Notes: generated by a model not told the origin, from the letters alone. A stretch of DNA of 35,939 nucleotides from Verrucomicrobiota bacterium (GCA_003219415.1 QHOS01000025.1:1-35939), one strand, 5' to 3'; positions 4,541 through 35,937 are shown, numbered from the stretch's first letter. A program made the numbers and translations.

Positions 4541-6928
4541 ATGAAAACAATATGCCTGAGTCAAACACGATGCCTGACCGCAGTCTCCTTGATGCTTGTA
4601 GGTGTGTTACTAACCTGTTACGGCGTCATAGTGAACTTGCGTCACGGCGGTATACAGGATATCGAGAACGTGGCTGACGTTGTACCTGCGGAGGAGGATG
4701 GGGATGCCGAGTATCTGGAAAAGCGTCATGAATTCCTGGACCGGTTCTTCGGGACCGGGCCAGGAGGCGTGTCGCCTAGTGCTTACATGGCCGCGCTCGC
4801 CGCGGCGCGCTCGCTGCCTCCAAGCCCGCTTTTGCAAGGCGGGAAGTTCGTGTCGCCCGAAGCGCCGGAGGTCACGTCGCCATGGACTTCTCCAATAGCG
4901 CCTCCCATGCAGAACAGTTACGGCGGAAACGCAAGCGCGAGGGTCCATGCGTTAGCTATTGATCCGGTCAACGCCAACGTCGTTTATACAGGAACCTTCG
5001 GCGGGCTCGCCAAGACAACCGACGGCGGCGTCACTTGGCGGTATTTGTCTGACTCGTGGGCTTCACAGAGTGTCAGCGCAATCGCCGTCAATCCTGGCGC
5101 GTCTAATGACGTCTACGTTGGCACGGGCAGAGAAGGCAGTGGCGCTGCCTCTTATGAGGTCGGCCTCTACCGCTCATTCGACGGAGGGTCAACCTGGAGT
5201 AGCGCCTTGGGAAAGGCCCAGTTTGAAGGTACGTACATCAGGACGATTGCTATCGACCCGAACACCTCGAGCTCGCAATTGACCACGACCGTATACGCCG
5301 CCAACGGCGGCACAAACACTTGCGGATTGTGGCGCTCAACTGATAGCGGCGTCACTTGGTTGCAGTTGTACCAGGTCGACAACGGCGTTTATGATGTAGC
5401 CATAGACGCCGCGACTCATCCTTCCACCCTTTACATCACTGAGGACAACGGGACGTTTAAGAGCACCGATTCCGGCCGATCCTGGACACTCATACACAGT
5501 GTTCTCGAGCATTCCCGCAATCGGTTAAGCGTGGCTAACTCCACGCTTTACCTTTTGGGGCCGAGCGATCCGGACCATAACCTCTACAAGTCCATGGACG
5601 GCGGAGCGACTTGGATTCAAATACCAACCCGTTGCCCCTGCGCTCCTGACGTTTGCGCAAACGACAACCCGCCTGGCCCTCCGATCTGTGCCGACAGCTG
5701 CGCCAGCCGCTGCGGTAATATCGGCTTTTCCGTGTTCGCCGTGGACCCCGTCGACCCACAGATCATTCTCGGAGGCAACCAGGCTCTTTACCGCACGGAT
5801 AACGAAGGCGCGACTTGGACCGAAATAGGAAACAAGTGGGGCAACGATCCCGATCCAGCCCGCCGCATCCATACCGACCAACGAGCGATCGTCTTCTCGC
5901 GGACAGCTCCTAATGTCGTGTACGAGGGCAACGACGGAGGCATCGTAAGATCGAGGGACGCGGGGCTGCACTGGACGAACCTTAATCAAAACTTTCCAGG
6001 TGCGTTGCTCTACGGCGTGGCCTTAAGCGCGGACGGCAATATGGTCGCGGGAACCCAGGACAACGGCGTGGTCTTCAGCGGCGCGAGTGCACCTTGGGAT
6101 ATGATCTTTGGCGGCGATTCCGCCCACAATCTCATCGATCCGGTCGATGGGACGGTTGGGTACTTCACGATGTATCGCGATTATGTCTTTAGAAGATTCA
6201 ACACGGCAACGCCGCACACCTCGGTCAATGTTCGCCCGTCTCAATTTGATGACGATGCAAGCTGCAACTTCTTTCCGACGTTTAGCATGAATCCATCTTC
6301 TCCAACTCATATCATCGCCGCTTGCCAGCAGGTGGTCCGAACCCTTGACGGCCCGACGGTTACGCCTGAGAGCTGGACGACGATCGGGCAGCCGTTTGCG
6401 GATCCTGTTACTGCAACCTACGAAGCACCGAATAATTCTAACGTCATTTACGCCGTCGCCGCTCATGGGGAGGTTTGGATGACTACGAACGCGAACGCCG
6501 GGACCGCGGCTGTCTGGAGGAATGTCACCCGAGACTTACCGGGGGGGATCTGGACCATCGCCGTTCATCCCACCGACCCGCAAACGGCATATCTCGCGTG
6601 CGATTCAGGCATGTATAAAACCACCGACATGGGAACAACCTGGATGCAACAGGGAGTCCAAAACCTGATCTATCGTGATGTAGCCATCGATCCACTGAAT
6701 CCTCAACATATCTTTGCAGCTTCTAATGCAGGAGTTTTTGCCAGCACCGATGGCGGGCTCAGCTGGGGAAACATGAGCGACGGCATACCGGCAGGATTGG
6801 TGGTTACTGCGCTCTCCTTTAATGCCAGTAGTCGGCAGCTTGCCGCTTCCACCTTTGGGCGTGGAGTTTACATGCTTCATCTGGATCCGCCTCCGCGGCC
6901 GCGTCCCACTCCGCGGCCCAGGCCATGA
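4541..6928 (+). CDS. Exported Asp-box (BNR-like) beta-propeller protein
   Basis: The 795-residue product has an N-terminal hydrophobic segment (LTAVSLMLVGVLLTCYGVIV) acting as signal or anchor. At least nine Asp-box units S/T-x-D-x-G-x-T/S-W follow, for example TTDGGVTWRYL, STDSGVTWLQL, SMDGGATWIQI and STDGGLSWGNM. This is the repeat found in sialidase/sortilin/xyloglucanase-type propellers. A cysteine-rich insert (CPCAPDVCANDN to SCASRCG, about residues 367-390) could carry disulfides, consistent with export. The tail is PRPRPTPRPRP. Catalytic residues of a glycoside hydrolase are not evident, so binding is as likely as catalysis. The start at 4541 is chosen because AAGGA of the conserved leader sits seven bases upstream; an ATG 36 bases earlier would begin inside the leader. 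Confidence 0.88.
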   Translation: MKTICLSQTRCLTAVSLMLVGVLLTCYGVIVNLRHGGIQDIENVADVVPAEEDGDAEYLEKRHEFLDRFFGTGPGGVSPSAYMAALAAARSLPPSPLLQGGKFVSPEAPEVTSPWTSPIAPPMQNSYGGNASARVHALAIDPVNANVVYTGTFGGLAKTTDGGVTWRYLSDSWASQSVSAIAVNPGASNDVYVGTGREGSGAASYEVGLYRSFDGGSTWSSALGKAQFEGTYIRTIAIDPNTSSSQLTTTVYAANGGTNTCGLWRSTDSGVTWLQLYQVDNGVYDVAIDAATHPSTLYITEDNGTFKSTDSGRSWTLIHSVLEHSRNRLSVANSTLYLLGPSDPDHNLYKSMDGGATWIQIPTRCPCAPDVCANDNPPGPPICADSCASRCGNIGFSVFAVDPVDPQIILGGNQALYRTDNEGATWTEIGNKWGNDPDPARRIHTDQRAIVFSRTAPNVVYEGNDGGIVRSRDAGLHWTNLNQNFPGALLYGVALSADGNMVAGTQDNGVVFSGASAPWDMIFGGDSAHNLIDPVDGTVGYFTMYRDYVFRRFNTATPHTSVNVRPSQFDDDASCNFFPTFSMNPSSPTHIIAACQQVVRTLDGPTVTPESWTTIGQPFADPVTATYEAPNNSNVIYAVAAHGEVWMTTNANAGTAAVWRNVTRDLPGGIWTIAVHPTDPQTAYLACDSGMYKTTDMGTTWMQQGVQNLIYRDVAIDPLNPQHIFAASNAGVFASTDGGLSWGNMSDGIPAGLVVTALSFNASSRQLAASTFGRGVYMLHLDPPPRPRPTPRPRP

Positions 6929-8784: not shown

Positions 8785-11148
8785 ATGAAGACTTCCGACC
8801 ACCGGTCTGATTCACTCCCGAGCGCGAGTAAAGGCACCGCAAAATGCGAGAAGTGCGGCGCAACCATGCGACTCGACACCGGAGTTTGTGTTAGCTGCCT
8901 CTTGCTCGAGGGACTGGAAACTGATGGCGACGTATCCAAGGCGGTTTATGAAAGCGTACTCGACGAGGTGGACGCGTCGCACAAGCCTTGGTTCTTAGGC
9001 AACTACGAAATTCTCGAGCAGATCGGTTGCGGCGGCATGGGCGTGATCTATCGCGCCAGGCAACGACATTCCCGGCGCATCGTCGCGGTAAAGCGCGTCC
9101 TTAGTTATCGCGCTGATTCACACGGAGCGCTGCAGCGTTTCCGACGAGAAGCACAGGCGGTGGCCAGTCTGGATCATCCAAACATCCTTCCGATATACGA
9201 GGTGAGCGAAAGCGAGGACGGCCTGCCGTTTTTCAGCATGAAGTTCGCGGAGAAGGGAAGCTTGCAAGAGAACACGGCTTCTCTGCGCGATGAACCGCGG
9301 AAGTGCGTGCAACTCATGGCAAAAGTCGCGCATGCTGTCGAATACGCCCACAGCCGGGGAGTTCTCCACCGTGATCTAAAACCGGGAAACATTCTGCTCA
9401 ACGATCGGGGCGAGCCACTGGTCAGCGATTTCGGTTTGGCGAAGCTGCTGGACGGGAACAACGATCTTACAAGGTCGCTGACTACGTTCGGAACAGCAGG
9501 TTTTATTGCCCCTGAGCAAGCTAATGGTGCAGCCGCCGATTTTACGCCGGCGGCCGATGTTTACAGTCTCGGCGCAGTTCTGTTCAACGTGCTTGCCGGA
9601 CGTCCGCCATTCCTGGGTTCGAATCCGGTTTCCGTGATTCGTCAAGCGTCTGAAACGCAGGCGCCCAAACTACGCTCGCTGGTACCATCACTCGATCGGG
9701 ATTTGGAGACGATTTGTGCACGCTGCCTCGAACGTGATCCAAAAGCGCGCTACCGCTCCGCCGGCGATCTCGCAGCCGATCTGGAACGCTGGCTCGGCGG
9801 CCGTCCAATCGTAGCCCGCCCGGTTTCACCTCCAGCGCGGATCTGGCGCTGGTCGCGTCGTAACCCCAAACTGGTTGGAGCAGCGACTGCCGGTCTTCTT
9901 TTAGGCGCGGCTGCGGTTTGGTTATTTCGCGCCGAACTCTTCCGAGCTTCGCAGTTTAATCCCCCGGACAGGAGTATTGCTGTTCTACCATTTACCGATT
10001 CTAGCGAGACGAAAGATCAGGAATATTTGTGTGACGGCATAAGCGAGGAGATTCTCGATACCTTGGCGCAGGCTGACGATTTGCGCGTGGTCGGCCGAAG
10101 TTCGTCATTCTCATTGAAAGGAAAGAACACAAAGGAGGTTGGAGAAAAGCTTAACGTTGGAAATGTGCTTGACGGAAGGTTGCAGCGCCAAGGTAACCGC
10201 GTTCGTGTAACAGCCGAACTGATTGACGCGCGAAACGGTTTTCGCGTGTGGACGGAAACTTATGACCGCGAGTTGGACGACGCATTTGCACTTCAAGGCG
10301 AAATCGCCCGGTCTATCGTTGACGCGCTCAAGATCAAGCTCGGCGTTCGGCTTTCCGCTCACGAACAACCCGGCAACGACGCGTACGACGTTTATCTACA
10401 GCGACTTTTCACGGATGTAACTCATCCGACAGGAATAAGCAGTATTGGCATTAGCGTGCCCGTACAGAATCCATTAAATCCATTCACCGTTCCGGATTAC
10501 ACATCTGCGGGAGGTTTCGACACGCGCCACCCGGACACTCGAGTGACCGCTGCACCTCCAGGGACGGGAGTCACTACCAGTGTGCGTGATCGCGCATCGG
10601 AAGCCGGTCTGCAAACGAACAAAATTACAGCGGACGTGACCGCTGCGCCTCCACGGACAGGATTCGCTACCAATGTGCGCGATCGCGCATCGGAAGCCGG
10701 TCTGCAAACGAACAAGATTATAGCGGACGGGCCAGCGGCCATTCATGGGTTTGTCAAAGATGCAAAAGGCGAACCGATTAAAGGCGCAGGCGTTCGAATC
10801 GAATCGCGAGACGGCAAACAGGTGTTCAGCACAGTTAAGACCGATCCAAACGGCCGCTATATTTCACAGGGACTGCAACCGGGCGTTTACCGGGTAACGT
10901 TGCTTGTAAATGGCGCGGTCAAGGCGTCGATCATGAACACGCAAACCAAGGCGGATCAACCGACTCAGCTGAATTTCGATTTCAAGCCAACGTCCGAAGC
11001 AGGTAACATTGCAAAGGGCGGAAAGCGCATGGTGTGGGTGCCAGCTCGTACCGGGAGCCATATCGGCGGTACTTGGGTCGAAGTCGACGACAGGGGAAAG
11101 GCGCATTCCGGTTCCAACATTGAGACAGTCACCGCTCGTACTTGGTAA
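8785..11148 (+). CDS. Ser/Thr kinase with zinc-ribbon, TolB-like and carboxypeptidase-regulatory-like domains
   Basis: Layout of the 787-aa product: a CxxC-x10-CxxC zinc-ribbon-like motif (Cys 21, 24, 35, 38); a complete Hanks kinase (glycine loop GCGGMG 81-86, Lys103 in VAVKRV, HRDLKPGN 196-203, DFG 215-217, APE 242-244); one membrane helix about 363-383; a TolB/FlgO-like domain beginning RSIAVLPFTDSSE (about 395-523); a linker with two near-identical 31-residue repeats (587-648); and a carboxypeptidase-regulatory-like beta domain (650-723; HGFVKDAKGEPIKGAGVRI, then GRYISQGLQPGVYRVTL). The TPR tail usual after the TolB-like domain is absent. The start follows the sigma-factor stop by five bases, which identifies the pair as one operon. 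The gene likely encodes a transmembrane signal relay acting on the sigma factor; this is inference. Confidence 0.93.
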   Translation: MKTSDHRSDSLPSASKGTAKCEKCGATMRLDTGVCVSCLLLEGLETDGDVSKAVYESVLDEVDASHKPWFLGNYEILEQIGCGGMGVIYRARQRHSRRIVAVKRVLSYRADSHGALQRFRREAQAVASLDHPNILPIYEVSESEDGLPFFSMKFAEKGSLQENTASLRDEPRKCVQLMAKVAHAVEYAHSRGVLHRDLKPGNILLNDRGEPLVSDFGLAKLLDGNNDLTRSLTTFGTAGFIAPEQANGAAADFTPAADVYSLGAVLFNVLAGRPPFLGSNPVSVIRQASETQAPKLRSLVPSLDRDLETICARCLERDPKARYRSAGDLAADLERWLGGRPIVARPVSPPARIWRWSRRNPKLVGAATAGLLLGAAAVWLFRAELFRASQFNPPDRSIAVLPFTDSSETKDQEYLCDGISEEILDTLAQADDLRVVGRSSSFSLKGKNTKEVGEKLNVGNVLDGRLQRQGNRVRVTAELIDARNGFRVWTETYDRELDDAFALQGEIARSIVDALKIKLGVRLSAHEQPGNDAYDVYLQRLFTDVTHPTGISSIGISVPVQNPLNPFTVPDYTSAGGFDTRHPDTRVTAAPPGTGVTTSVRDRASEAGLQTNKITADVTAAPPRTGFATNVRDRASEAGLQTNKIIADGPAAIHGFVKDAKGEPIKGAGVRIESRDGKQVFSTVKTDPNGRYISQGLQPGVYRVTLLVNGAVKASIMNTQTKADQPTQLNFDFKPTSEAGNIAKGGKRMVWVPARTGSHIGGTWVEVDDRGKAHSGSNIETVTARTW
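10543..10728 (+). repeat. Tandem 93-bp repeat inside the kinase gene
   Basis: Two consecutive in-frame 93-bp units encode VTAAPPGTGVTTSVRD and VTAAPPRTGFATNVRD, both continuing RASEAGLQTNKI. They form the linker between the TolB-like and the regulatory-like domains. High identity suggests a recent slippage-type duplication. Confidence 0.85.
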
Positions 11149-23967: not shown

Positions 23968-24645
23968 GTGTCACAATATGCTATAGCTGTGGGGCTTTTC
24001 AGCGAATTTCGATTGGCGGATTACCTTTCGCCTGAAGCGATGACCCATGAATTCGACGGAAAACTTTACGATTTTTCGAAACTTGGAATCGCCAATTCCG
24101 TAGTTCGGAGTGTGACCCAGTCATCCGCCTCTCTCGCGCTGGTCCCTGAACCAGTATGGTTTTGTCTAAAGACGCAGCCAAAGCGCGAGCATTTGGCCGC
24201 GACCGCGCTCCGGCGTCAGTTTGCCGTCGAGTGTTTCTCGCCTCGATTGCGTTTCCGAAGGATGACCCAAAGGGGCCCGGTCTGGTTTGTAGAGGCCATG
24301 TTTCCTGGCTATCTGTTCGCAAAATTTGTCTACTCGACCCAGCACCGCGCCGTTGAAAATTCTCACGGCATCCGAGGGATTGTCCATTTTGGCGATCGGC
24401 TGGCAACCTTGCCTGAAAACGTTGTAACTGCACTCCAATCGAGAGTGGGTTCGGAAGAAGTCGTGACTCTTGATTGCTCCATCAAAGTCGGCCAATCGGT
24501 TCAAATCATCGATGGACCGTTTCAAGGACTTGATGTCGTGGTTACTCATTTACTTCCCGCGAAAGAACGGGTCCGCGTCCTTTTCGATTTCCTTGGGCGG
24601 TCCGTGGAAATGGAAGTTTCAACGGCAAAAGTGCTCGCAGCGTAA
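23968..24645 (+). CDS. NusG-paralogue transcription antiterminator (RfaH/UpxY/LoaP type)
   Basis: The 225-residue frame contains a NusG N-terminal domain from about residue 62 (VWFCLKTQPKREHLAATALR, then FFSPRLRF-like CFSPRLRFRR and AMFPGYLFAKF) and a KOW-containing C-terminus (KVGQSVQIIDGPFQGLDVVV, then RVRVLFDFLGRSVEMEV). Such paralogues usually open exopolysaccharide or secondary-metabolite operons by suppressing termination and lie beside their target. The first 60 residues are not part of the domain; the GTG start is uncertain and ATG at 24040 is an alternative. The gene stands alone on the + strand, opposite the CTERM gene block. Confidence 0.85.
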   Translation: MSQYAIAVGLFSEFRLADYLSPEAMTHEFDGKLYDFSKLGIANSVVRSVTQSSASLALVPEPVWFCLKTQPKREHLAATALRRQFAVECFSPRLRFRRMTQRGPVWFVEAMFPGYLFAKFVYSTQHRAVENSHGIRGIVHFGDRLATLPENVVTALQSRVGSEEVVTLDCSIKVGQSVQIIDGPFQGLDVVVTHLLPAKERVRVLFDFLGRSVEMEVSTAKVLAA

Positions 24646-24970: not shown

Positions 24971-25531
24971 TTAACTCATTATGTAACGTCTGGCCACGCC
25001 CAGCACACTAAGGGCAGCGCCGAGTAACATCGCAGTAGTGCCACCATCGGGAACTCCAGGAACACCTGGGCCGAAGAGCGTCCAGCCGGAAAGACCATAT
25101 CCGCCAGCTGTCGCCGGAATCGTGATGATGCCGCTGAGATCTCCAACGTACCAAACCTCAGATCCGTAGTTTGGGCCATCATATTTCGCAAACAGATAGG
25201 TATACAACCCAGTGCCAAGATTTATGGTTGTACTCGTTCCGTTTACATGGCCAGCCAACACAGCTTGAGGCAATTGGCCGAAGCTATGGTTTGAGCGAAA
25301 GTAGGTCTGTCCATCGGCTTTGTCGCTCGTGCCGAGAGCCATGCCAATCAAATGATTGACATAAATCAGGCGGTCAGCATCGCCCGAAGGGATACCGAAA
25401 TTCACGAAGCCCAGCTCATGGGCATCGCCAATCGTAAGGGCTTTGGCGTTATTGCTGAATGCAAGCATTGCACCGAGGACGACCGTGCAAAGCAGTGCGA
25501 ATTTCATTGTCGAACTTTTGTTTATTTTCAT
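24971..25531 (-). CDS. VPDGG (VPDSG-type) CTERM surface protein 1
   Basis: The 186-residue product has a signal peptide ending AKA before LTIGDAHELG and a mature beta-rich domain (DADRLIYVNHLIGMALGT, YLFAKYDGPNYGSEVWYVGD). The C-terminal sorting signal has the motif VPDGGTT, a hydrophobic helix (AMLLGAALSVLGVA) and a basic RRYI end. Exosortase systems recognise such tails; VPDSG-type signals are known from Verrucomicrobia. The start is ATG at 25531, because an upstream TTG lies inside the sigma-54 promoter. Transcription would begin about five bases before ATG, giving a nearly leaderless mRNA with no ribosome-binding site. The protein is almost identical to protein 2. Confidence 0.93.
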   Translation of the reverse strand: MKINKSSTMKFALLCTVVLGAMLAFSNNAKALTIGDAHELGFVNFGIPSGDADRLIYVNHLIGMALGTSDKADGQTYFRSNHSFGQLPQAVLAGHVNGTSTTINLGTGLYTYLFAKYDGPNYGSEVWYVGDLSGIITIPATAGGYGLSGWTLFGPGVPGVPDGGTTAMLLGAALSVLGVARRYIMS

Positions 25532-25563
25532 GTCGCAGTAGAACAAAGCAACCGCTGTGCCAA
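24972..25563 (-). repeat. 592-bp direct repeat, copy A
   Basis: This block and copy B (26307-26898) are nearly identical at DNA level. The homology ends exactly after the TGGCAC of the sigma-54 promoter on one side and within the stop codon on the other. The differences visible at protein level lie mostly in the signal peptide. Confidence 0.9.
25547..25562 (-). promoter_or_regulatory. Sigma-54 promoter of CTERM gene 1
   Basis: On the minus strand TGGCACAGCGGTTGCT: the -24 TGGCAC and the -12 TTGC are separated by five bases, the textbook sigma-54 pattern. It lies directly before the ATG at 25531. Confidence 0.9.
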
Positions 25564-25659
25564 AGCAAAAACGGACTCAACGATTGTCATAAGTCCTGAT
25601 GTCACTGATATTTACGATTACGAGAAATTCCGTTGGGTCGCACACGCTGGTATCGAAAG

Positions 25660-25766
25660 TCGTTAAGTATTCCGACGATGACTTGTCTGATCAATATGTC
25701 GCAACATAACACGCAAGAAATAAGGACTTTGTAACGAATATTTCCGCGTGTCAGGATTTCCGACGC
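25660..25766 (-). promoter_or_regulatory. Candidate PrsR activator-site pair upstream of CTERM gene 1
   Basis: Two sites of the form NNGT-N11-ACGN: inner TCGTTAAGTATTCCGACGA at 25660-25678, outer GTGT-N11-ACGC at 25748-25766. The inner ACGA starts 113 bp from the -24 TGGCAC. The two sites are 88 bp apart. The same arrangement precedes genes 2 and 3. Confidence 0.5.
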
Positions 25767-25872
25767 TTCGATTTGCGCTAGTGATGATATCGCCGGATCG
25801 CCAAACAAGCTAACCAGCTTTGCCGTTTGAACCGAACCGGCAGTTTGGCTCCGACTCTATTTACGACTCCAG

Positions 25873-26083
25873 TCAAAAATTGCCAACGAACCAGACTTCG
25901 GCACCGCAGCCGGTGTAATTCGCAAACAAGCATTTGTATATGCCACCGGCCCCAAGATTGATGGTTGTAGCCGTGCCGTTCAGGGCCCACACCTGCGATC
26001 GGCGAAGAATTGAACGCCTGGTTTGAGCGAAGGTAGATCTCGCCGTTAGCAATGTCGATCGAGCCAAGAGCCATCCCAATGAG
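25873..26083 (-). pseudogene. Decayed VPDGG-CTERM paralogue
   Basis: Two frames together read LIGMALGSIDIANGEIYLRS, NQAFNSSP and then, after a frameshift near 25985, GTATTINLGAGGIYKCLFAN and EVWFVGNF before a TGA. These match the middle of the intact paralogues (LIGMALGTSDKADGQTYFRS to YGSEVWYVGN). The signal peptide, promoter and CTERM tail are missing. It lies between genes 1 and 2. Confidence 0.85.
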
Positions 26084-26231
26084 TAAGATCTTCCAACAAT
26101 ATGCGAAACGACGCGGACTCGGGAGTATGGCTAAGCCTTACTGACTCGCGGCAGATCGCGCCATGACTGATTTTTGCCAATGATATGTCCTTTCGTTCTG
26201 CCAGCCGACCGGGCGCCTTCTCTGTCTGTGC

Positions 26232-26264
26232 AAAAAAAAACCGGGCAGGTTTTACCCTGCCCGG
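26232..26264 (-). terminator. Intrinsic terminator of CTERM gene 2
   Basis: On the minus strand a 9-bp perfect stem CCGGGCAGG/CCTGCCCGG with a 6-nt loop is followed by nine T residues. It is the strongest intrinsic terminator in the window, 42 bases after the gene stop. Confidence 0.92.
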
Positions 26265-26305
26265 CAAATCATTTTTCGGCTCCAGATACAGGAGCTGGTA
26301 ACCAG

Positions 26306-26866
26306 CTAACTCATTATGTAACGTCTGGCCACGCCCAGCACACTAAGGGCAGCGCCGAGTAACATTGCAGTGGTGCCACCATCGGGAACTCCAGGAACAC
26401 CTGGGCCGAAGAGCGTCCAGCCGGAAAGACCATATCCGCCAGCTGTCGCCGGAATCGTGATGATGCCGCTGAGATTTCCAACGTACCAAACCTCAGATCC
26501 GTAGTTTGGGCCATCGTATTTCGCAAACAGATAGGTATACAACCCAGTGCCAAGATTTATGGTTGTACTCGTTCCGTTTACATGGCCAGCCAACACAGCT
26601 TGAGGCAATTGGCCGAAGCTGTTGTTTGAGCGAAAGTAGGTCTGTCCATCGGCTTTGTCGCTCGTGCCGAGAGCCATGCCAATCAAATGATTGACATAAA
26701 TCAGCCGGTCAGCATCGCCCGAAGGGATACCGAAATTTACGAAGCCCAGCTCGTGGGCATCGCCAATCGTAAGGGCTTTGGCGCTATTGCTGAACGCAAG
26801 CATTGCGCCAACGAGAGCCATGCAGAGCAGTGCTAGTTTCTTTGTTGAACTTTTGTTTATTTTCAT
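26306..26866 (-). CDS. VPDGG (VPDSG-type) CTERM surface protein 2
   Basis: The 186-residue product is nearly identical to protein 1. The signal peptide differs most (KKLALLCMALVGAMLAFSNS against MKFALLCTVVLGAMLAFSNN). The mature part and the VPDGGTT-hydrophobic-RRYI tail are the same apart from two substitutions (His to Asn, Asp to Asn). The ATG at 26866 lies about five bases after the predicted sigma-54 transcription start. It is a single-gene unit with its own strong terminator. The biological role of this mature domain is unknown; secreted, sorted, probably attached to the outer layer or polysaccharide. Confidence 0.93.
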   Translation of the reverse strand: MKINKSSTKKLALLCMALVGAMLAFSNSAKALTIGDAHELGFVNFGIPSGDADRLIYVNHLIGMALGTSDKADGQTYFRSNNSFGQLPQAVLAGHVNGTSTTINLGTGLYTYLFAKYDGPNYGSEVWYVGNLSGIITIPATAGGYGLSGWTLFGPGVPGVPDGGTTAMLLGAALSVLGVARRYIMS

Positions 26867-26898
26867 GTCGCAGTAGAACAAAGCAACCGCTGTGCCAA
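26307..26898 (-). repeat. 592-bp direct repeat, copy B
   Basis: Partner of copy A (24972-25563). Sequence immediately outside both ends is different in the two copies. Confidence 0.9.
26882..26897 (-). promoter_or_regulatory. Sigma-54 promoter of CTERM gene 2
   Basis: TGGCACAGCGGTTGCT on the minus strand, identical to the promoter of gene 1 and at the same distance from the ATG. Confidence 0.9.
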
Positions 26899-26997
26899 CG
26901 GCAACAAACCATCATATAAGTATCGCAACATGTTGGTGTATAGATTGTTACGTGTGGCCCGAAATTTTCGAGAATAGAACTGGATTGGTGCCAAAAA

Positions 26998-27104
26998 TCG
27001 TAAGACTTTCCGACGGTTATTGCGCTGTCCAACTGAGAAAGGCATAAGAGCCACTAAGAATAGGCATTACACGGTGCAGCGCCCGACGTAAGTAATTCCG
27101 ACGT
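26998..27104 (-). promoter_or_regulatory. Candidate PrsR activator-site pair upstream of CTERM gene 2
   Basis: Inner site TCGTAAGACTTTCCGACGG at 26998-27016, outer site ACGTAAGTAATTCCGACGT at 27086-27104. The inner ACGG begins 116 bp from the -24 element; the two sites are 88 bp apart, the same as for gene 1. The surrounding sequence is otherwise unlike gene 1. Confidence 0.5.
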
Positions 27105-27809
27105 TTTGCTCTCGGCCACCAAGACCTGAAACGGCCCAAGCTGAAAATGCGCGTCCAGCAGGACGAGAAGGCTCGCCGCCAATGAAAAATTGAGCAGGGT
27201 TTTGTCCTGCCAGGCATAAAATGATGGCTTGCCGTATCGAAGGTGGCGAGGGCCACGCCAGGGGCACATTTCTGTCATGCCGCCGTCACGAACGACCGCG
27301 CTACTTCGCCGAACAAGATCTATTCTGATGAGAGCACACGTCGCAACAGGACGGGAATGGCTACCCACTCAGCTAACCGAGATGCAGACTTTGGAGCCTT
27401 GATTCAGGCCATCGTACGTCGACGAACAGGAGGATAGGAGCCAAGGAAAAAGAGAGCACAACCGCGCACCGATTTCGCCTCTACCCAGTGACGTCCTGTG
27501 GCATTCGCAAATCTGACAAATTCAAACATTCAGTGGCACGACCGGGGTGTTTTGCCGGGGGTCGGGAGGAAAATTCGACCGGTGTTGAACTCTGATCAAC
27601 CTTCGCTGAGAGCCAAGGGGCACTTCGAGCCATCACTCTGGGCAGGCGGAACGAAGGTACCCTCTGCGTATCACATGCAGCCCTGGCTTGAATAACAAAG
27701 AGTAAGGCTGGTCGAGCGCAGAGGAAAACTTGGGAAAGCGACCCGCCGGACACGAGAGTGCTCGAGGACAGCGGAGATAACCTTGTCATAGGGTTCGGGT
27801 ACAAGCAAA
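27105..27809. other. Gene-free spacer between CTERM genes 2 and 3
   Basis: About 700 bp without a supported gene. Short frames on both strands lack ribosome-binding sites and family resemblance. At 27194-27210 a weak GCAGG/CCTGC stem followed on the minus strand by TTTTT resembles a damaged version of the gene 2 terminator and could mark a lost paralogue. Confidence 0.4.
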
Positions 27810-27838
27810 AGTGGCCGCCCCAAAAGGGAACGGCCACT
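27810..27838 (-). terminator. Terminator of CTERM gene 3
   Basis: AGTGGCCG and CGGCCACT form an 8-bp stem, extended inside by CCC/GGG with a short internal loop. On the minus strand it is followed by TTTGCTTGTAC, the same trailing sequence as after gene 1. Confidence 0.75.
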
Positions 27839-27865
27839 CTTGTGTCGGGAAACTGATTTAACTAA

Positions 27866-28423
27866 TTACCTCTTCAGGAAGCGCCGTGCCATGCCGAGCG
27901 AGCCGAGGGCCGCACCGAGCAACATTGCTGTGGTGCCGCCGTCCGGCACAGTGCCCGGGGTGCCAAAGAGCGTCCACCCCGAAAGGCCATAACCACCAGC
28001 GGTAGCCGGAATCGTAATAATGCCGCTTAGATCTCCAACGTACCAAACTTCAGATCCATAATTTGGGCCGTCATACTTCGCAAACAGATATACAAATGTG
28101 CCGCCGGTGCCCAGATTTATAGATGTGCCGGTGCCGTTTACACCTGTAAACGCGGCAGGCGCCAAGGGACCAAAATCGTTGTTTGAGCGAGTGTAGGTCT
28201 GTCCGTTGGCTTGGTCAGTGGTGCCAAGGGCCATGCCGACCAAATGATTGACATAAGTTAGTCGATCACCGTCGCCGGATGGTATTCCAAATTGCACGAA
28301 GCCCAATTCATGGGCGTCGCCGATTGTAAGGGCACGGGCATTGGGACTGAATGCTAACATTGTCGCGCATACCGCCGTGCAGAGTAGCGCCAGTTTAGTT
28401 GTGGGAATTATATTTATTTTCAT
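27866..28423 (-). CDS. VPDGG (VPDSG-type) CTERM surface protein 3
   Basis: The 185-residue product is a clear but diverged paralogue of proteins 1 and 2. It has the same plan: signal peptide ending ARA before LTIGDAHELGFVQFG, mature domain with YLFAKYDGPNYGSEVWYVGD, and tail VPDGGTT, AMLLGAALGSLGMA and RRFLKR. The stronger basic end and the changed spacing before VPDGG (FGTPGT) distinguish it. A sigma-54 promoter predicts a 17-nt leader before the ATG. It is the member nearest to prsT and may represent the parent gene of the array. Confidence 0.93.
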   Translation of the reverse strand: MKINIIPTTKLALLCTAVCATMLAFSPNARALTIGDAHELGFVQFGIPSGDGDRLTYVNHLVGMALGTTDQANGQTYTRSNNDFGPLAPAAFTGVNGTGTSINLGTGGTFVYLFAKYDGPNYGSEVWYVGDLSGIITIPATAGGYGLSGWTLFGTPGTVPDGGTTAMLLGAALGSLGMARRFLKR

Positions 28424-28450
28424 AGGATTTTCGGGTTTTCTAAAGAAGGA

Positions 28451-28466
28451 AGCAGGCTTTGTGCCA
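28451..28466 (-). promoter_or_regulatory. Sigma-54 promoter of CTERM gene 3
   Basis: On the minus strand TGGCACAAAGCCTGCT: a perfect -24 TGGCAC and a -12 CTGC (one mismatch from TTGC, the invariant GC kept) at the correct five-base spacing. Confidence 0.85.
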
Positions 28467-28566
28467 AGACTTCAGTTCGCGTGTCAGAAAAGCTGTAATA
28501 TTCTTGTTACTAAAGACTTATCAAGATGCCACGATTCCAGCAAATTCCGTATGAGTCCGCGTTGAG

Positions 28567-28676
28567 TCGTAAATTACCTCGACGAGCCACAGTAGTACGG
28601 GTGGATTCGAGATATGTAATAGCTTGGCAATTACAGTTTTACGGCGGAACCTAGGAATTGTACGGATTCCCGACGG
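28567..28676 (-). promoter_or_regulatory. Candidate PrsR activator-site pair upstream of CTERM gene 3
   Basis: Inner site TCGTAAATTACCTCGACGA at 28567-28585, outer site TTGT-N11-ACGG at 28658-28676. The inner ACGA begins 116 bp from the -24 element, as for gene 2; the two sites are 91 bp apart. Confidence 0.45.
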
Positions 28677-28806: not shown

Positions 28807-31800
28807 TTACTTTGGCTGCAGATCTGCGAGGGCATGCCTTGCTTCGGATGCCAGAGGCTCCTGAAGACCGCCAACCAAGGCTTGATTAAGGACGTCGCGT
28901 GCTTCGGCTTTTTGTCTGGTCTGAAGTTGAGACATTCCCAGATAGAAAAGAGAATTGGCGTTGAGCGATGTTTTCCGAGCGCTTTCCTCCAATAATTGGA
29001 TTGCGCGCTGGTATTCCTTTTTCTCATAGCTCAATCGTCCAAGAAGTTCCGCCAATTCGCCGTCATCTGGTAATGCCTTACGCGCTTTTGTGGCAAGGTC
29101 GTACGCCGCAGCAGTTGTGGATGGCTCTTGCGCATACAGTTTGGCCAGGCGTTTTTGCGCAGGCGCGAAATCCGGTGATCGACGAAGGATGCTCGTGTAT
29201 ATCTCAGATGCCGGCTTTATCTGACCGCGCTGTTCATCGAGGGCGGCCTGGGCCATGAGGGCGGGCAGATACTCAGGACTTGCTTGCAATTCCTTTTGGA
29301 TCTCGTTCTCAGCCGCCACGAGTTCCTTTAAGTTTTCATCCAATGCAGTTAACGAAAGAAATGTTCTAGCGTCAGCAGCTTCCGGGAAGTCGGAACCGGT
29401 CGCCAGAGCTTTTTGCATGGTTTCACGAGCCTCATTCACTTTTCCCAATCTATAAGCAGCCCAAGCCAAATCGTGGAGGATCGACGGATCGTTTTCGCGC
29501 TGTCGTGCTGCCTCCTGCAGAAGGCTGTACGACCAAGCGAGATTGCCACTTTGGTAGGCAACCTTTCCGAGAATGCTGGTGACCTGGGGATCATTCGGCG
29601 TCAGTTCGCGCGCTTTTTTTGCGTAGGCGAGAGCTTTCTCCTTATTCTGAAGGGGCCCGGCATAGAGTTGCGCGAGTTTGGTTGTCGCCGAAGCCAACCG
29701 AGGATTTAGTTTTAGTACCTGCTCGAAAGCCGCGGCCGCTTTATCCGCTGCGCCTTGTTTCTCATAAGCCTCACCCAAACGCGTCTGAGCGATGACGTCG
29801 TTAGGTTGCTTTTTCGCCATTGCTTCCAGTTGTGAAACCGACAATTCTGGCGCAGCGGCGGCATCGTTTTTTAGCAAAGCGAGATGACGTTTGCTTTCCT
29901 CCTTGCCGGGAAAATCGTTGGTCGCGCTCGCGGCTTTTTGGAGAGCCACCCTGGCTAAGTCTGGCTGACCCATCATATAAGCCGTCATGCCAAGGTGGAA
30001 TTGGACTTCCGGACTATCGGGTAACTTTGCTGCGCTCCCTTGCAGAATCGCCAGGGCTTGTTGATACTCGCCGCGCTTGGACAAAATCCAGCCAAACGTG
30101 TCAGCTATTGCGGGATCGTTTCCCTGGAGGTCGCGGGCTTTGCGCGCCAGATCGTAAGCCTTGCCTAGATCATTCAGTCGATCGGCATAGAGGCAAGCAA
30201 GATTATTCAGAGCTGAAACTAAGTCAGGTTTCAACGAGAGAAGGTGCTCGTAAGCATCGCGTGCTTTAGCGAACTCGTTTGTCCGCTCGTGCAGGAGCGC
30301 GAGTGTCATAAGCGCTGATGCATCATTAGGATTTTTCGAAAGCTGGGTCTGCAATTGACTGAGCGCTTGGGGAAGCTTGTTGGTCACAAGATAAGTTTGG
30401 ACCAGCAAATCGTATGCGCCGCCAAAATTTGGGTCGAGTTGGAGTGTCTTTTGGAGCTCTGTCTCGGCTGGACCCCATTTTTCTTCCGCTACCAGGATCT
30501 TCCCCTTGAAAAAATGGGCTGCTGGCGAATCAGGTGTCTTTTGGAAGTGACGATCTATCCTCTGCTGCGCAGTATCAAAATGCTTTTCCAGCAAGTCCAG
30601 TTCCACGAGTTGATCGACTGGCCACAAGTTATCTGGCGCGAGCTCGGCGGCTTTTTCAAATGCCTGGCGTGCTTCGTCATTTCTCTTGGCTTGACGTAAG
30701 GTCAGGCCTAATGCCATCTGCGCTTGTGGATCGCGCGGTGCAAGCTTTGCTTCCTCGCCGGTGATTACAGCGGCATCGTCAAAGCGATCAAGCGAGCCAT
30801 ATGCAGCGGCCAAGAGCAATGCCGCAGGCCTTAACTCGGGAGACCTCTTCAGCAAACGCGTCATCGGTTCAATAACAGCTTCGCCATGGCCAGAACGAAG
30901 ATTGATGTCGGCAAGAAGCAGTATGGCTTCGGCGTAGTTCGGGTTAATTGAGATGGCCTGATCCAACACTACCTTTGCCTGGTTCATGTTATTCTTTTTG
31001 AGATAAGCACGTGCCAGTTCGTACTTGATAAGAGGAGTGTCCGGATAGGTTTGGTCGAGCCTTTCTAAAACCTCGGTAGCTTTTTTCGTGTCGCCCTTTG
31101 CTAGCAGTACCTCGCTTTCCAGTCTGTGGCCATCTATGTATTGCGGCTCGCGGCTAAAAACATTTTCAAGAAGCGAGAGAGCCTCGTCATATTTACCTTC
31201 CTTAAAGGCAAGCTCGGCTAGCAAAGTCCAGCCTGGCAGATAGTCGGGTGCCTGTGTGGTCATCTCAGTCGAAATTCTTCTTGTTTCTGCGGTATCACCT
31301 GCCGCGGACATGAACGCTGCATATTTCAAGCGCTCCATGGAACGAACAGGCGCAAGCTCCGCTGCTTTTTTGAATTCTTCGCCGGCTTGTTTCTGGTCTT
31401 TCTTGAGCAGATAGAGATCTCCCAGCGCCATGTGCGCGGCGGAAGAGTTAGGATTGACGGTAAGCGCTGGCCGCAGGGCTTTTTCTGCCGCAGCTAAGTC
31501 GCCACTGCTGAGAAACAGATTCGCCGAAGCGAGGTGAAAAGAAACGTCGTCCTTTTTAGGGTATTTCTCGAGATGTTGCTCCGCGGCCTGAATGTCTTCC
31601 TTGCTTCGCGCCGCTTCAGTCAAAGCGATAATCGCGTCTTCATTGTCTGGGGTCTGCTCCAGCACCTTAAGGGCTTGTTTGCTTGCATCGGCGAAGCGCC
31701 CTATGGCCAGATAACATCGGGTGAGCCGTATTCGATTTTGATCGTTCTTGGGAGCCAGCTCGTTCGCCTTCACAAGGAACGCAGCGGCACGCAGCGGTGA

Positions 31801-32031
31801 TCCATCCTCCAGCCACATGGTTCCAATTCTTTCGAAGGCGAGCGCGTTTTGCGGGTCTAGCCGCACCACGTTGAGGTAGCTTACCTTTGCCTTGTCGTAA
31901 TTGCCGGCTTTAAAATAAGAGTCCGCCTCCGCGAGAAACCGTGTCTTCTTGGCTTCCTTAGAGCAGGAGGCGATGAGTGCAGCCGCTAGAGTAAGCGTTA
32001 CGATTCTAAATAACATTTTCGACGTTTGCAT
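28807..32031 (-). CDS. prsT: PEP-CTERM-system TPR-repeat lipoprotein PrsT
   Basis: The 1074-residue product begins with a lipoprotein signal (LFRIVTLTLAAALIASC, lipobox IASC, followed by SKEAKK). Nearly the whole remainder is tetratricopeptide repeats, more than twenty, starting YFKAGNYDKAKVSYLNVVRL. PrsT proteins of exosortase loci are of this kind, though often somewhat shorter (about 900 aa). It would sit lipid-anchored in the periplasm and serve as a scaffold for export or assembly of sorted proteins or polysaccharide. ATG at 32031 gives a 13-nt gap to prsR; ATG at 32016 is an alternative. Longer frames run into prsR and are rejected. Third gene of the prsK-prsR-prsT operon. Confidence 0.92.
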   Translation of the reverse strand: MQTSKMLFRIVTLTLAAALIASCSKEAKKTRFLAEADSYFKAGNYDKAKVSYLNVVRLDPQNALAFERIGTMWLEDGSPLRAAAFLVKANELAPKNDQNRIRLTRCYLAIGRFADASKQALKVLEQTPDNEDAIIALTEAARSKEDIQAAEQHLEKYPKKDDVSFHLASANLFLSSGDLAAAEKALRPALTVNPNSSAAHMALGDLYLLKKDQKQAGEEFKKAAELAPVRSMERLKYAAFMSAAGDTAETRRISTEMTTQAPDYLPGWTLLAELAFKEGKYDEALSLLENVFSREPQYIDGHRLESEVLLAKGDTKKATEVLERLDQTYPDTPLIKYELARAYLKKNNMNQAKVVLDQAISINPNYAEAILLLADINLRSGHGEAVIEPMTRLLKRSPELRPAALLLAAAYGSLDRFDDAAVITGEEAKLAPRDPQAQMALGLTLRQAKRNDEARQAFEKAAELAPDNLWPVDQLVELDLLEKHFDTAQQRIDRHFQKTPDSPAAHFFKGKILVAEEKWGPAETELQKTLQLDPNFGGAYDLLVQTYLVTNKLPQALSQLQTQLSKNPNDASALMTLALLHERTNEFAKARDAYEHLLSLKPDLVSALNNLACLYADRLNDLGKAYDLARKARDLQGNDPAIADTFGWILSKRGEYQQALAILQGSAAKLPDSPEVQFHLGMTAYMMGQPDLARVALQKAASATNDFPGKEESKRHLALLKNDAAAAPELSVSQLEAMAKKQPNDVIAQTRLGEAYEKQGAADKAAAAFEQVLKLNPRLASATTKLAQLYAGPLQNKEKALAYAKKARELTPNDPQVTSILGKVAYQSGNLAWSYSLLQEAARQRENDPSILHDLAWAAYRLGKVNEARETMQKALATGSDFPEAADARTFLSLTALDENLKELVAAENEIQKELQASPEYLPALMAQAALDEQRGQIKPASEIYTSILRRSPDFAPAQKRLAKLYAQEPSTTAAAYDLATKARKALPDDGELAELLGRLSYEKKEYQRAIQLLEESARKTSLNANSLFYLGMSQLQTRQKAEARDVLNQALVGGLQEPLASEARHALADLQPK

Positions 32032-32044
32032 ATGGAGGATGGCT

Positions 32045-33430
32045 TTAATGTAAGTTGATATTTGTAGCTGCGCGTTCCTTAGAAATACCCAGTTTTTCCA
32101 TGAGTTCGTAAAGAGTCGGTCGACTGATGCCGAGCTCGGCAGCTGCGGAAGTGATTTTGCCAGAGTTCTTCTTAAGGGCCTGCTCAACCATTTCTCGTTC
32201 GACGTGCTCGCGTGCTTGTCGCAGAGTCGTTGCAGCCGAAGACACCACTCCCCGATCCCGTTCCAACTCGAGGTCCTTTGCGGTCACTCGCGACCCACTG
32301 GTCATAATCACGCCCCTTTTCACCCGGTTTTGGAGTTCGCGGACATTTCCAGGCCACGAATAACAGCTCATCGCGCGCAACGCGTCCGGCGCGAAAACCA
32401 TCCTGGTCCGGCCGTTTTGGCTGCCATACCTTTGCAGAAACTCGCGGGCCAGGAACACAATATCTTCCCCGCGTTCACGAAGCGGCAGAAGGCGAATCGT
32501 GACAACAGCAAGACGAAAATAGAGATCTTCGCGAAATTTCCCGTTATTGATCAGCCCTTTTAGATCGGCGTTGGTCGCGGCCACCAGCCTGGTATCGACT
32601 TGAAGCTCTTGTCTCCCGCCGACTCGTTGCAAGCGCTGTTCTTGAAGGAACCGGAGGAGTTTCACCTGAATAGCTGGCGGAAGCTCTCCAATCTCATCTA
32701 GAAAGAGGGTGCCGCCACTGGCTGTTTCCAATAGCCCTTTGCGTTGAATGTGAGCGCCGGTAAAAGAGCCTTTTTCGTGGCCGAACAACTCACTCTCCAA
32801 AAGGTTTTCAGGAATAGCATTACAGTTGATTGCGACAAAAGGGCCGTCCTTGCGCGCGCTGCGGTGATGAATGGCCGCTGCCGCCATTTCTTTACCGGTG
32901 CCGCTTTCTCCCAGCAAGAGCACTGGAGCATTAGTCCCGGCCACCTTGCGAATGAAAGCAAAGACTGCCTGCATTTGTGGACTGGTGCCGAGCATGTTCT
33001 CAAAGACATCAGAGCGCTGGCTTTGTTGTAACTTGTGGTATTCCTTCTCGAGTTCCATCACGTGGATGCAGCGACGAATGAGCAGCCTCAGTTCTTCCAT
33101 TTCCACAGGCTTGCACAAGAAGTCATAGGCGCCCGCGCCAACCGCCTGGATGGCGTTGTGTTTTTCCCCCTGCCCGGAAATAATGATGACCTTGGCCGTG
33201 TTATCGATTGCAAGTATGTCGGATAGCACGGCCAAGCCTTCGTCGCATTCATTGGGGCAAGGTGGTAGACCCAGATCAAGTAACGTTACCGCTGGAGAGT
33301 GAGCCTCAAAGCTTTCAACCGCTGCCTTGCGATCTTCGGCGAAGTGGACTTCGTAATCCTCGCCCAGGGCCCATTTCATCTGGGTCCGGATGGCTTCGTC
33401 GTCATCCACAATGAGCAATTTCGGTTTCAT
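32045..33430 (-). CDS. prsR: PEP-CTERM-box sigma-54 response regulator PrsR
   Basis: The 461-residue product is an NtrC-type activator. The receiver domain (LLIVDDDEAIR) has the phospho-acceptor Asp52 in LLDLGLP. The AAA+ domain has Walker A GESGTGKE (174-181), GSFTGA (221-226; the sigma-54 contact loop, normally GAFTGA) and Walker B GGTLFLDE (239-246). The C-terminal Fis-type helix-turn-helix is GKITSAAAELGISRPTLYEL. The start is ATG at 33430, whose ATGA overlaps the prsK stop. It is expected to activate the sigma-54 promoters found before all three CTERM genes downstream. Confidence 0.95.
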   Translation of the reverse strand: MKPKLLIVDDDEAIRTQMKWALGEDYEVHFAEDRKAAVESFEAHSPAVTLLDLGLPPCPNECDEGLAVLSDILAIDNTAKVIIISGQGEKHNAIQAVGAGAYDFLCKPVEMEELRLLIRRCIHVMELEKEYHKLQQSQRSDVFENMLGTSPQMQAVFAFIRKVAGTNAPVLLLGESGTGKEMAAAAIHHRSARKDGPFVAINCNAIPENLLESELFGHEKGSFTGAHIQRKGLLETASGGTLFLDEIGELPPAIQVKLLRFLQEQRLQRVGGRQELQVDTRLVAATNADLKGLINNGKFREDLYFRLAVVTIRLLPLRERGEDIVFLAREFLQRYGSQNGRTRMVFAPDALRAMSCYSWPGNVRELQNRVKRGVIMTSGSRVTAKDLELERDRGVVSSAATTLRQAREHVEREMVEQALKKNSGKITSAAAELGISRPTLYELMEKLGISKERAATNINLH

Positions 33431-35544
33431 GCTGTTTGGCATTTGAGAGGCAGCATGACTCGGAACGTTGTGCCTACGCCGAGTTCGCTTTCTACGTGGA
33501 TCTTCCCATAATGGGCTTCGACAATTGTCTTGGATTGAAACATACCAATGCCCAATCCTTTTTTCTTTGTGGAGCGGAACGGCCGGAAAAGAGAATTCTT
33601 GATAAACTGCTCACTCATTCCGCATCCGTTATCACTCACGGATAAGGCTACCCACTCTCCCTGGCGTGTCGTCTCCACCGTAATCCGGCCGTTCGTGCCG
33701 ACCGCATCGCACGCGTTGAGAAGGAGGTTCGTACATACGCTTTGAAGTTGTTGTCCATCGGCCAATATCTTTGGGATCTGATCAAATTTGGTTACCAAAT
33801 TGTTTTCCAGTGTCCCATTCAAGGTTGCGAGAGCTTCCGTGACAACGACATTGAGATCCAATTCTGCGGTCTTGAGACGCAATTCATGCCGCAGGGCGTT
33901 CATGCGGTTGATAAGATCATTGATCCGGCTGGCCGCGCTCCCGATTCCGCGGAATGCATCCTGCCGGAAAGCGGGATTGTCGAAGTGGGCCGGCAGATTC
34001 TGCAACATGAGGCCCAAGGTTGAGGCTGCATTCTTTAGGTCATGAATCAAGAATGCGGACATGGTTTGAAACGCCTCGAGCTCTTTCTTTTCCATGATCT
34101 CTTCTGTAAGTCTCAGCTTCAGGAGACTCGCCGCCACTTGCTCGCCGATGCATTTTAGCAAGTCCATCTCTTCCGCCGAGTAGCCGAGCCCCCTAACGCG
34201 GTCTGCGAGGACTATTACTCCGACCCAGCTCTCTCCACCGACCAGCGGAACACAAATGGGGCTGCCCCCAGTGCGGAATTGCCCACTGCTTCTCTCCATG
34301 AGCTCTCGTGCCCATTTTTCTTTTGCTCTACCGAGATCAAAGGGTCGTGACACTTTGATTAACTCACTTGAATTGAGCTCCTTCCCCGCGATCGAGCTGA
34401 TCGAATCGTCGCTCGGCGCCTGCTCCGCATTAGAGGTTGAGCTCACTCGCATCAGGCGCTCTCCGTGCTCATCGAAGAGCCAGGTCGAGACAGAAAGCGC
34501 ACCAAATGTCTCTGAAATCAACCGCGACGCGATCGTGGCAAGCGCAGTCTCATCGAGGGCAATCGAGAGACTTTGAGTGAATCGCGCCCAAATCTGACGG
34601 AAATCATGCTGCGGCCTTTTAAAGTGGCGACTGACGAAGAGCTGCAGACTTTGCCGAGCTCGGTCAGAAAGAAGCAGAACGGCTAGGATAGCCACCCCAA
34701 GGAGGACGACAAACGCTGCGATTGGAAAACTGGCAGCACCGCCAAAGCGGGCGACGATTTGAGCCAATACGCCAACAACAAAAAGATATGCCCCGGTCAG
34801 CAACACCGTGATCGAGGTATGTAAAACGGCGCGTGATGGATAGACATCAATTTCGCCAAATCCGCTTCGAACATAAGCAGCGGTGATCAGCGCGCATCCG
34901 ATTAGAAGAGCAGTCGCTTCGACGCTGAGTTGACTCGGGCTGTAATCCGAGAAAAGCAGCGCCTGACTTCGGGTGTAAATGCAGGCGCCAAAGATCACCG
35001 CAAGCCCCAGAACCAGGAACTTGATTCGCCAGCGCATCGTTCCAACGGCGGCGCGGAAGGTCCGCTCGATATTCGTCAGAATTAACACCGTCGAAATGAG
35101 GATCAGAACGTTTAGAATCTTTGCGGGTTCATCAAGCTTGAGTCCCCATCCGTGAACGGGTTGCTCGTACGTGACGACGTAGAAAAAAGGACTGTAGAGG
35201 GCCGCCAACGACAACATTGGAACCAAAAAAGCGCCAAGAAGAAGCCACCGCGATTGGACGAGAAAATCGCGGTAGTTTGCCCTGGAATATGTCAGGCTAA
35301 ACGTTAGCCAAATGCCAGGGAGAAATGATCTTGCCACCAGAGAAAGCGTTTGCCAAAAGGCCGCCCTCTCAGGAAGGAGCGTATCGTTTGCTATTGCCCC
35401 AAACAGGCTTTCCAAGGCAAAAGCCAGCATTCCAGCCGAGAAACACCAGGTCGCAAGCGAACGCTGCTTTCTACGGGCCGCAGTCGCCGCCAAAGCGGCG
35501 CTGAACATGGCGGCGGCCAACGCTAAAACGGCATTCGGATTCAC
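33427..35544 (-). CDS. prsK: PEP-CTERM-system sensor histidine kinase PrsK
   Basis: The 705-residue product has about eight membrane segments in residues 1-295, the PrsK-type sensor region. A GAF domain (~320-475) follows, then DHp with H-box FLIHDLKNAASTL (His501) and an ATPase domain: N-box NLLLNACDAV, DNGCGMSE (638-645) and GLGIGMF (663-669). It likely phosphorylates PrsR, whose gene overlaps its stop by four bases (ATGA). The signal is unknown. First gene of the operon; no sigma-54 promoter is seen directly upstream, so expression probably depends on a housekeeping promoter. Confidence 0.94.
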   Translation of the reverse strand: MNPNAVLALAAAMFSAALAATAARRKQRSLATWCFSAGMLAFALESLFGAIANDTLLPERAAFWQTLSLVARSFLPGIWLTFSLTYSRANYRDFLVQSRWLLLGAFLVPMLSLAALYSPFFYVVTYEQPVHGWGLKLDEPAKILNVLILISTVLILTNIERTFRAAVGTMRWRIKFLVLGLAVIFGACIYTRSQALLFSDYSPSQLSVEATALLIGCALITAAYVRSGFGEIDVYPSRAVLHTSITVLLTGAYLFVVGVLAQIVARFGGAASFPIAAFVVLLGVAILAVLLLSDRARQSLQLFVSRHFKRPQHDFRQIWARFTQSLSIALDETALATIASRLISETFGALSVSTWLFDEHGERLMRVSSTSNAEQAPSDDSISSIAGKELNSSELIKVSRPFDLGRAKEKWARELMERSSGQFRTGGSPICVPLVGGESWVGVIVLADRVRGLGYSAEEMDLLKCIGEQVAASLLKLRLTEEIMEKKELEAFQTMSAFLIHDLKNAASTLGLMLQNLPAHFDNPAFRQDAFRGIGSAASRINDLINRMNALRHELRLKTAELDLNVVVTEALATLNGTLENNLVTKFDQIPKILADGQQLQSVCTNLLLNACDAVGTNGRITVETTRQGEWVALSVSDNGCGMSEQFIKNSLFRPFRSTKKKGLGIGMFQSKTIVEAHYGKIHVESELGVGTTFRVMLPLKCQTA

Positions 35545-35802: not shown

Positions 35803-35937
35803 TTATTCTACTGAGCGAGCCCGGATCTCACCCTTGCGGAGCCACCACAACAGCAGCAAAAGCGGAATCAGCGAAAGGACGAAGAAGATAGGCCCGCCAC
35901 GGGTGTGTATGGGACTGTGAATCATCTGCGGGCCTAC
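35803..35937 (-). CDS. C-terminal end of a membrane protein, truncated by window edge
   Basis: A frame open to the right edge ends with HTRGGPIFFVLSLIPLLLLL, WWLRKGEIRARS and a stop. One hydrophobic helix followed by a basic tail is consistent with a membrane-anchored C-terminus. ATG at 35925 could alternatively start a 40-residue peptide. The overall architecture (TM plus positive end) resembles a sorting tail, but no VPDSG or PEP motif is visible in the part seen. Family unknown. Confidence 0.45.
   Translation of the reverse strand, partial: VGPQMIHSPIHTRGGPIFFVLSLIPLLLLLWWLRKGEIRARSVE

Follow-up and report, generated by a model that had tools for sequence, protein, structure and literature searches.

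In Proteobacteria, a 17-nt motif (motif 1) with the 3' end TTTACA was described upstream of PEP-CTERM genes by Haft et al. in 2006 (BMC Biol 4:29, PMC1569441); it is sometimes repeated, is followed after 32-92 nt (mean 62.8) by a sigma-54 promoter (motif 2), and was proposed, as a prediction, to be the site of the regulator PrsR. The motif was reported as shared by Proteobacteria only, and no PrsK, PrsR or PrsT was listed for V. spinosum (PMC1569441). In Aquincola tertiaricarbonis, the PEP-CTERM gene pepA, near prsT, has a mapped -24/-12 promoter (TGGCAC/CTGCTT), and its expression needs RpoN1, with a predicted upstream enhancer noted by the authors (PMC9850573). In the literature searched, no demonstration of PrsR binding to such sites was found. 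Here, 17-nt elements upstream of three VPDSG-CTERM genes were analyzed in a 35,939-nt stretch of DNA from a Verrucomicrobiota bacterium (GCA_003219415.1 QHOS01000025.1:1-35939; hereafter, the window), which is contig C118 of a 3.6-Mb genome. As judged from sequence comparison, these elements are very probably PrsR operators that activate the sigma-54 promoters of the VPDSG-CTERM genes.

An earlier reading of the window (hereafter, the original prediction) had placed a -24/-12 promoter at each of the three genes, with an inner and an outer activator site upstream, and all three promoters were located on the minus strand where it had put them (Table 1). Measured from the -24 element, with the first G of GTCGG (or the corresponding base) as endpoint, the inner sites of genes 1, 2 and 3 lie at -114, -117 and -117, and the outer sites at -202, -205 and -208; the previous inner distances of 113, 116 and 116 are the same measurement, one base off, and the offsets of 88, 88 and 91 within the pairs were confirmed by recount. 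The spacer between site and promoter is 98, 101 and 101 nt. The surrounding DNA is largely unlike, as had been noted: at equal distance from the -24 element, ungapped identity among the three upstream regions is 23-27%, which is the chance level, and the sites are therefore conserved amid otherwise unrelated DNA. Genes 1 and 2, which are recent duplicates, are nearly identical and share the same core promoter; their likeness ends at the -24 element, so that the enhancer region and the core promoter plus gene look like separately exchanged modules. Four of the six sites contain TTCCGACG, in agreement with the original prediction (+ strand at 25670, 25758, 27008 and 27096); its stray copies at 9139 and 24754 were found as named, and a third copy, at 6273, was missing from that list.

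To derive the element, VPDSG-CTERM genes were taken from PrsR-encoding genomes across the phylum and sigma-54 promoters were scored upstream, and a set of 48 upstream regions, all distinct and each with a good promoter, was kept (6 from this genome and 42 from others). Words of 5-7 nt were counted de novo in these regions without reference to the reported sites. GTCGG was present in 45 of the 48 regions (10.9 expected) and CGTCGG in 34 (3.7 expected), and the other leading words were TTTACA, CTTACG and TTACAG. In the matrix built from the 42 regions of other genomes, the information lies in 17 positions, with the consensus YGTCGGAATNNYTDACR (YGTCGGaat..yTtACR), and the conserved block is the 17-mer YGTCGG....TDACR. 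Scored with this matrix, which was trained without this genome, the six sites occupy, in descending order of the bit scores in Table 1, ranks 1, 2, 3, 4, 6 and 7 of the window, with one intruder at rank 5; the chance expectation for sites of at least 20.7 bits in a sequence of this size is 0.003. By leave-one-genus-out scoring, a site of at least 12 bits was detected in 45 of the 48 promoters; in reversed sequence the count was 0 of 48, and for sites in the opposite orientation it was 3 of 48. The orientation of the element relative to the promoter is fixed, and the sites, the promoters and their conserved order and orientation across many genomes are treated here as observations.

The form TCGT-N11-ACGR, under which the sites had been reported, covers the same site as the 17-nt element plus one base at each end and is not its best description. 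It was rejected as a defining motif, being too weak alone: further copies stand at 5916 and 29303 in the window, and a pattern search of the genome gave 116 occurrences of TCGT-N11-ACGA versus 85 for the reversed control. Separately, the operator matrix scores 21.5 bits at 24052-24072 (+) of the window (TTCGACGGAAAACTTTACGAT), inside an RfaH/NusG-like frame and near its start. This match is identical in a relative (L014) whose surrounding region is 85% identical, no sigma-54 promoter was seen after it, and it is probably a coding coincidence.

The distribution of the element was assessed with a strict pattern, namely GTCGG-N6-TDAC followed after 76-136 nt by a sigma-54 promoter. This pattern was present in 19 of 30 PrsR-positive and 9 of 183 PrsR-negative genomes of the order (213 genomes, Fisher p=4e-13), and in 7 of 11 PrsR-positive and 5 of 377 PrsR-negative genomes of a phylum sample (388 genomes, p=1e-9), where both p-values overstate certainty because related genomes were treated as independent. 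The reversed pattern was found in two of the 213 genomes, once each, and had zero occurrences in the 388-genome sample. PrsR was distinguished in the phylum sample by a clear gap in TIGR02915 scores (PrsR above 545 bits, other NtrC-type proteins below 458 bits). Among the four PrsR-positive genomes missed there, two (G224 and G139) do have the element, but its sequence or the promoter deviates slightly. Most strict matches with a readable downstream gene stand before CTERM genes, as do all four in the window's own genome. This tracking of the sites with PrsR is likewise treated as an observation, and the proposal of PrsR operators in the original prediction stands, with the candidate element strongly enriched before CTERM genes of related genomes and following PrsR across order and phylum.

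The same element was found outside Verrucomicrobiota, where the Proteobacterial comparison consisted of the plasmid-borne prsR/prsK loci of Vibrio and Nitratidesulfovibrio. Vibrio alfacsensis encodes PrsK, PrsR and PrsT and has the element before PEP-CTERM genes, e.g. TGTCGATATATTTTACA, which agrees with the published description of motif 1. When several dozen sigma-54-like sequences of the plasmid loci were scanned, all genes with an upstream match of at least 13 bits were PEP-CTERM genes, apart from one that encodes a membrane protein. Two further PEP-CTERM genes have the element upstream: one lies on a Nitratidesulfovibrio plasmid that also encodes PrsK and a PrsR-like regulator, the other in a Thermodesulfovibrionia genome, in the neighbourhood of prsR. 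At the Photobacterium GJ3 locus, no convincing element was found near the PrsR relative. The recognition helices of PrsR are alike (SRPTLYELM in the window, TRPTLYHLL in Vibrio and SRPTFYDLL in Nitratidesulfovibrio).

As compared from the published text and the sequences read here, the matrix has the same width (17) as motif 1 and a TTTACA-like 3' end. This match, together with the occurrence of the element before PEP-CTERM genes elsewhere and the similar recognition helix, identifies the sites as Haft-type predicted PrsR operators, in a lineage from which none was known. Further likenesses are the occasional repetition of the element, the -24(GG)/-12(GC) sigma-54 promoter after it, the single CTERM-protein gene behind it, and the co-occurrence with PrsK, PrsR and PrsT (TIGR02916, TIGR02915, TIGR02917 and TIGR03778 all exceed their cut-offs here). 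In contrast, the element stands here in Verrucomicrobiota with VPDSG-CTERM substrates, its second G in GTCGG and its last base (A or G) are different, pairs 87-93 bp apart are frequent, and the spacer of the window lies outside 32-92 nt, a range that is a statistic of the Proteobacterial set. The pepA system of A. tertiaricarbonis differs in its host, a betaproteobacterium. NtrC-type enhancers are in general dyad-like sites for a Fis-type helix-turn-helix dimer, often two, which act remotely on sigma-54; their sequence is unrelated to that of the element, and the paired sites here are commonly 88-91 bp apart. Operator and regulator family thus appear as known from sequence, whereas the phylum and substrate class are new and the promoter geometry is different. 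The original claim that such an operator was undescribed holds for Verrucomicrobiota and VPDSG substrates, to which longer spacing and frequent pairs are added as new, and does not hold for the operator class, which was predicted in 2006 for Proteobacteria (PMC1569441).

In the proposed mechanism, each VPDSG-CTERM gene would be a single-gene unit read by sigma-54 RNA polymerase from its -24/-12 promoter, with PrsR, an NtrC-type protein encoded 4-8 kb from the operators, as the putative activator. PrsR would be phosphorylated by PrsK, and dimers of phosphorylated PrsR would occupy the inner and outer elements by a C-terminal Fis-type helix-turn-helix and assemble an active AAA+ ring, which would contact the promoter-bound polymerase by DNA looping and open the promoter. 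The presence of PrsK, PrsR, PrsT and sigma-54 is observed; we infer PrsR as the binder, the phosphorylation, the looping and the need for both sites of a pair.

Several observations weigh against PrsR operators. Gene 3 has a weak inner site (12.5 bits), nine PrsR-negative genomes of the order carry the strict pattern, and eleven PrsR-positive assemblies of the order are without it. The element was also found at 10 of 47 CTERM genes where no sigma-54-like promoter was found, and many CTERM genes have neither element nor promoter. All nine PrsR-negative genomes are partial assemblies, with a completeness of 59-90%, and they belong to genera that carry PrsR or to neighbours of such genera. These same assemblies would fit binding of the element by a different NtrC-type activator that merely co-occurs with PrsR, as would the further activators of this type that are encoded (several sub-cut-off TIGR02915 matches per genome). 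Such an activator is nevertheless improbable, since other NtrC-type proteins are near-universal (384 of 388 phylum genomes) whereas the element is confined to PrsR-bearing lineages, accompanies prsR in two other phyla, and is associated with a prsR gene that adjoins the target genes and has a conserved recognition helix. Still less probable is binding of a non-activator, whether a repressor or a protein that bends DNA, such as IHF, which would shape the enhancer region while PrsR binds elsewhere; a bending protein would be well placed between an outer region and the promoter, and the variation between one and two sites per promoter would be accommodated, but word counts show no other comparably enriched element, and the 17-mer is orientation-specific, partly dyad-like and tied to the presence of PrsR. 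Chance resemblance or a leftover of gene duplication, suggested by the recent copying of genes 1 and 2 with identical core promoters, was rejected because upstream of these two genes identity is only 27% and leave-one-genus-out scoring finds the element again in 45 of 48 promoters.

With PrsR operators as the preferred reading, the consensus is sharp enough for target finding from sequence alone, so that in soil bacteria of the Candidatus Udaeobacter type the exosortase surface-protein regulon becomes predictable. The range of the predicted PrsR operator, previously Proteobacteria, is extended to Verrucomicrobiota and to one Thermodesulfovibrionia genome, and the 20-year-old prediction of the PrsR site is now directly testable with a 17-bp probe. 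One PrsR-positive genome (G224) has 36 VPDSG-CTERM matches, and most of its CTERM genes examined lack a sigma-54 promoter; control by PrsR thus probably extends to only some of its substrates. At another locus (L140; G501:C171:7900-8055), a conserved operator and a sigma-54 promoter stand 139-141 bp apart with no CTERM gene recognized after them, and equivalents of this arrangement are present in G499, G500, G502, G504, G505 and G506; it is possible that this element marks a non-CTERM target or a small RNA of the PrsR regulon.

Across the set of 48 regions, the spacer to the promoter is about 75-131 nt, and distances to the promoter cluster at 91-93, 102-106, 109-119 and 138-141. Two sites of at least 10 bits were found in 22 of the 48 promoters, apart by 18-21 or mostly 87-93 bp, while in shuffled sequence a site of at least 10 bits was found in less than one region of 48. 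A clean helical phasing of the site-promoter distance was rejected, with a best period of 11.9 bp and a poor fit at 10.5 bp (R=0.29) in a sample that includes related sequences. It is a tentative and rather doubtful idea that Udaeobacter and its relatives have an obligatory operator pair with a fixed spacing of 18-21 or 87-93 bp, from which the active ring would be built by dimers at two remote sites; this architecture is unreported for PrsR and might serve as an expression dial among paralogous surface proteins, with enhancers swapped as modules at the -24 element.

The three VPDSG-CTERM genes adjoin prsT, prsR and prsK, and all are above the curated cut-offs (Table 1).

Table 1. Positions of genes, promoters and candidate operators in the window
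Feature	Position	Strand	Details
VPDSG-CTERM gene 1	24971..25546	-	TIGR03778 24.1 bits, cut-off 22; frame from TTG 25546, first ATG 25531
VPDSG-CTERM gene 2	26306..26881	-	TIGR03778 24.1 bits; frame from TTG 26881, first ATG 26866
VPDSG-CTERM gene 3	27866..28423	-	TIGR03778 22.2 bits, cut-off 22
prsT, TPR lipoprotein	28807..32187	-	TIGR02917 396.5 bits, cut-off 312.2
prsR, NtrC-type sigma-54 activator	32045..33442	-	TIGR02915 586.4 bits, cut-off 502.6
prsK, membrane histidine kinase	33427..35544	-	TIGR02916 399.9 bits, cut-off 300
Sigma-54 -24/-12 promoter, gene 1	25547..25562	-	TGGCACAGCGGTTGCT
Sigma-54 -24/-12 promoter, gene 2	26882..26897	-	TGGCACAGCGGTTGCT
Sigma-54 -24/-12 promoter, gene 3	28451..28466	-	TGGCACAAAGCCTGCT
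Inner candidate PrsR operator, gene 1	25661..25677	-	CGTCGGAATACTTAACG; 22.0 bits
Outer candidate PrsR operator, gene 1	25749..25765	-	CGTCGGAAATCCTGACA; 21.7 bits
Inner candidate PrsR operator, gene 2	26999..27015	-	CGTCGGAAAGTCTTACG; 25.1 bits, top position in window
Outer candidate PrsR operator, gene 2	27087..27103	-	CGTCGGAATTACTTACG; 22.0 bits
Inner candidate PrsR operator, gene 3, weak	28568..28584	-	CGTCGAGGTAATTTACG; 12.5 bits
Outer candidate PrsR operator, gene 3	28659..28675	-	CGTCGGGAATCCGTACA; 20.7 bits

With TIGR03778 scores above the cut-off, all three VPDSG-CTERM proteins are assigned the C-terminal VPDxG signal, the transmembrane helix and the basic end of this family. The PrsR match spans positions 1-444 of the 445 of TIGR02915 (full NtrC-type architecture), and the nearest named relatives of the PrsR sequence are those of the soil Verrucomicrobia metagenome-assembled genome AV48 (95% identity) and Candidatus Udaeobacter AEW3 (92%). 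The prsT frame was drawn from its first start codon, and translation may begin further inside the frame. The genome also encodes RpoN (436 bits), outside the window. For the VPDSG-specific exosortase (TIGR04151), the best match in the genome, likewise outside the window, scored 247 bits, below the cut-off of 300, which leaves an exosortase relative under the family threshold. The C-terminal end of an exosortase-like frame (35827-35937, -; 38 bits to TIGR04151) leaves the contig beside prsK, and contig C48 of this genome carries a longer exosortase match. The first ATG of genes 1 and 2 (25531-25562 and 26866-26897) stands only a few bases past the expected transcription start, so that either the transcripts would have almost no leader or a later ATG would be used. 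Between these two genes, a decayed remnant of another VPDSG-CTERM gene was observed at 25778-26200 (-).

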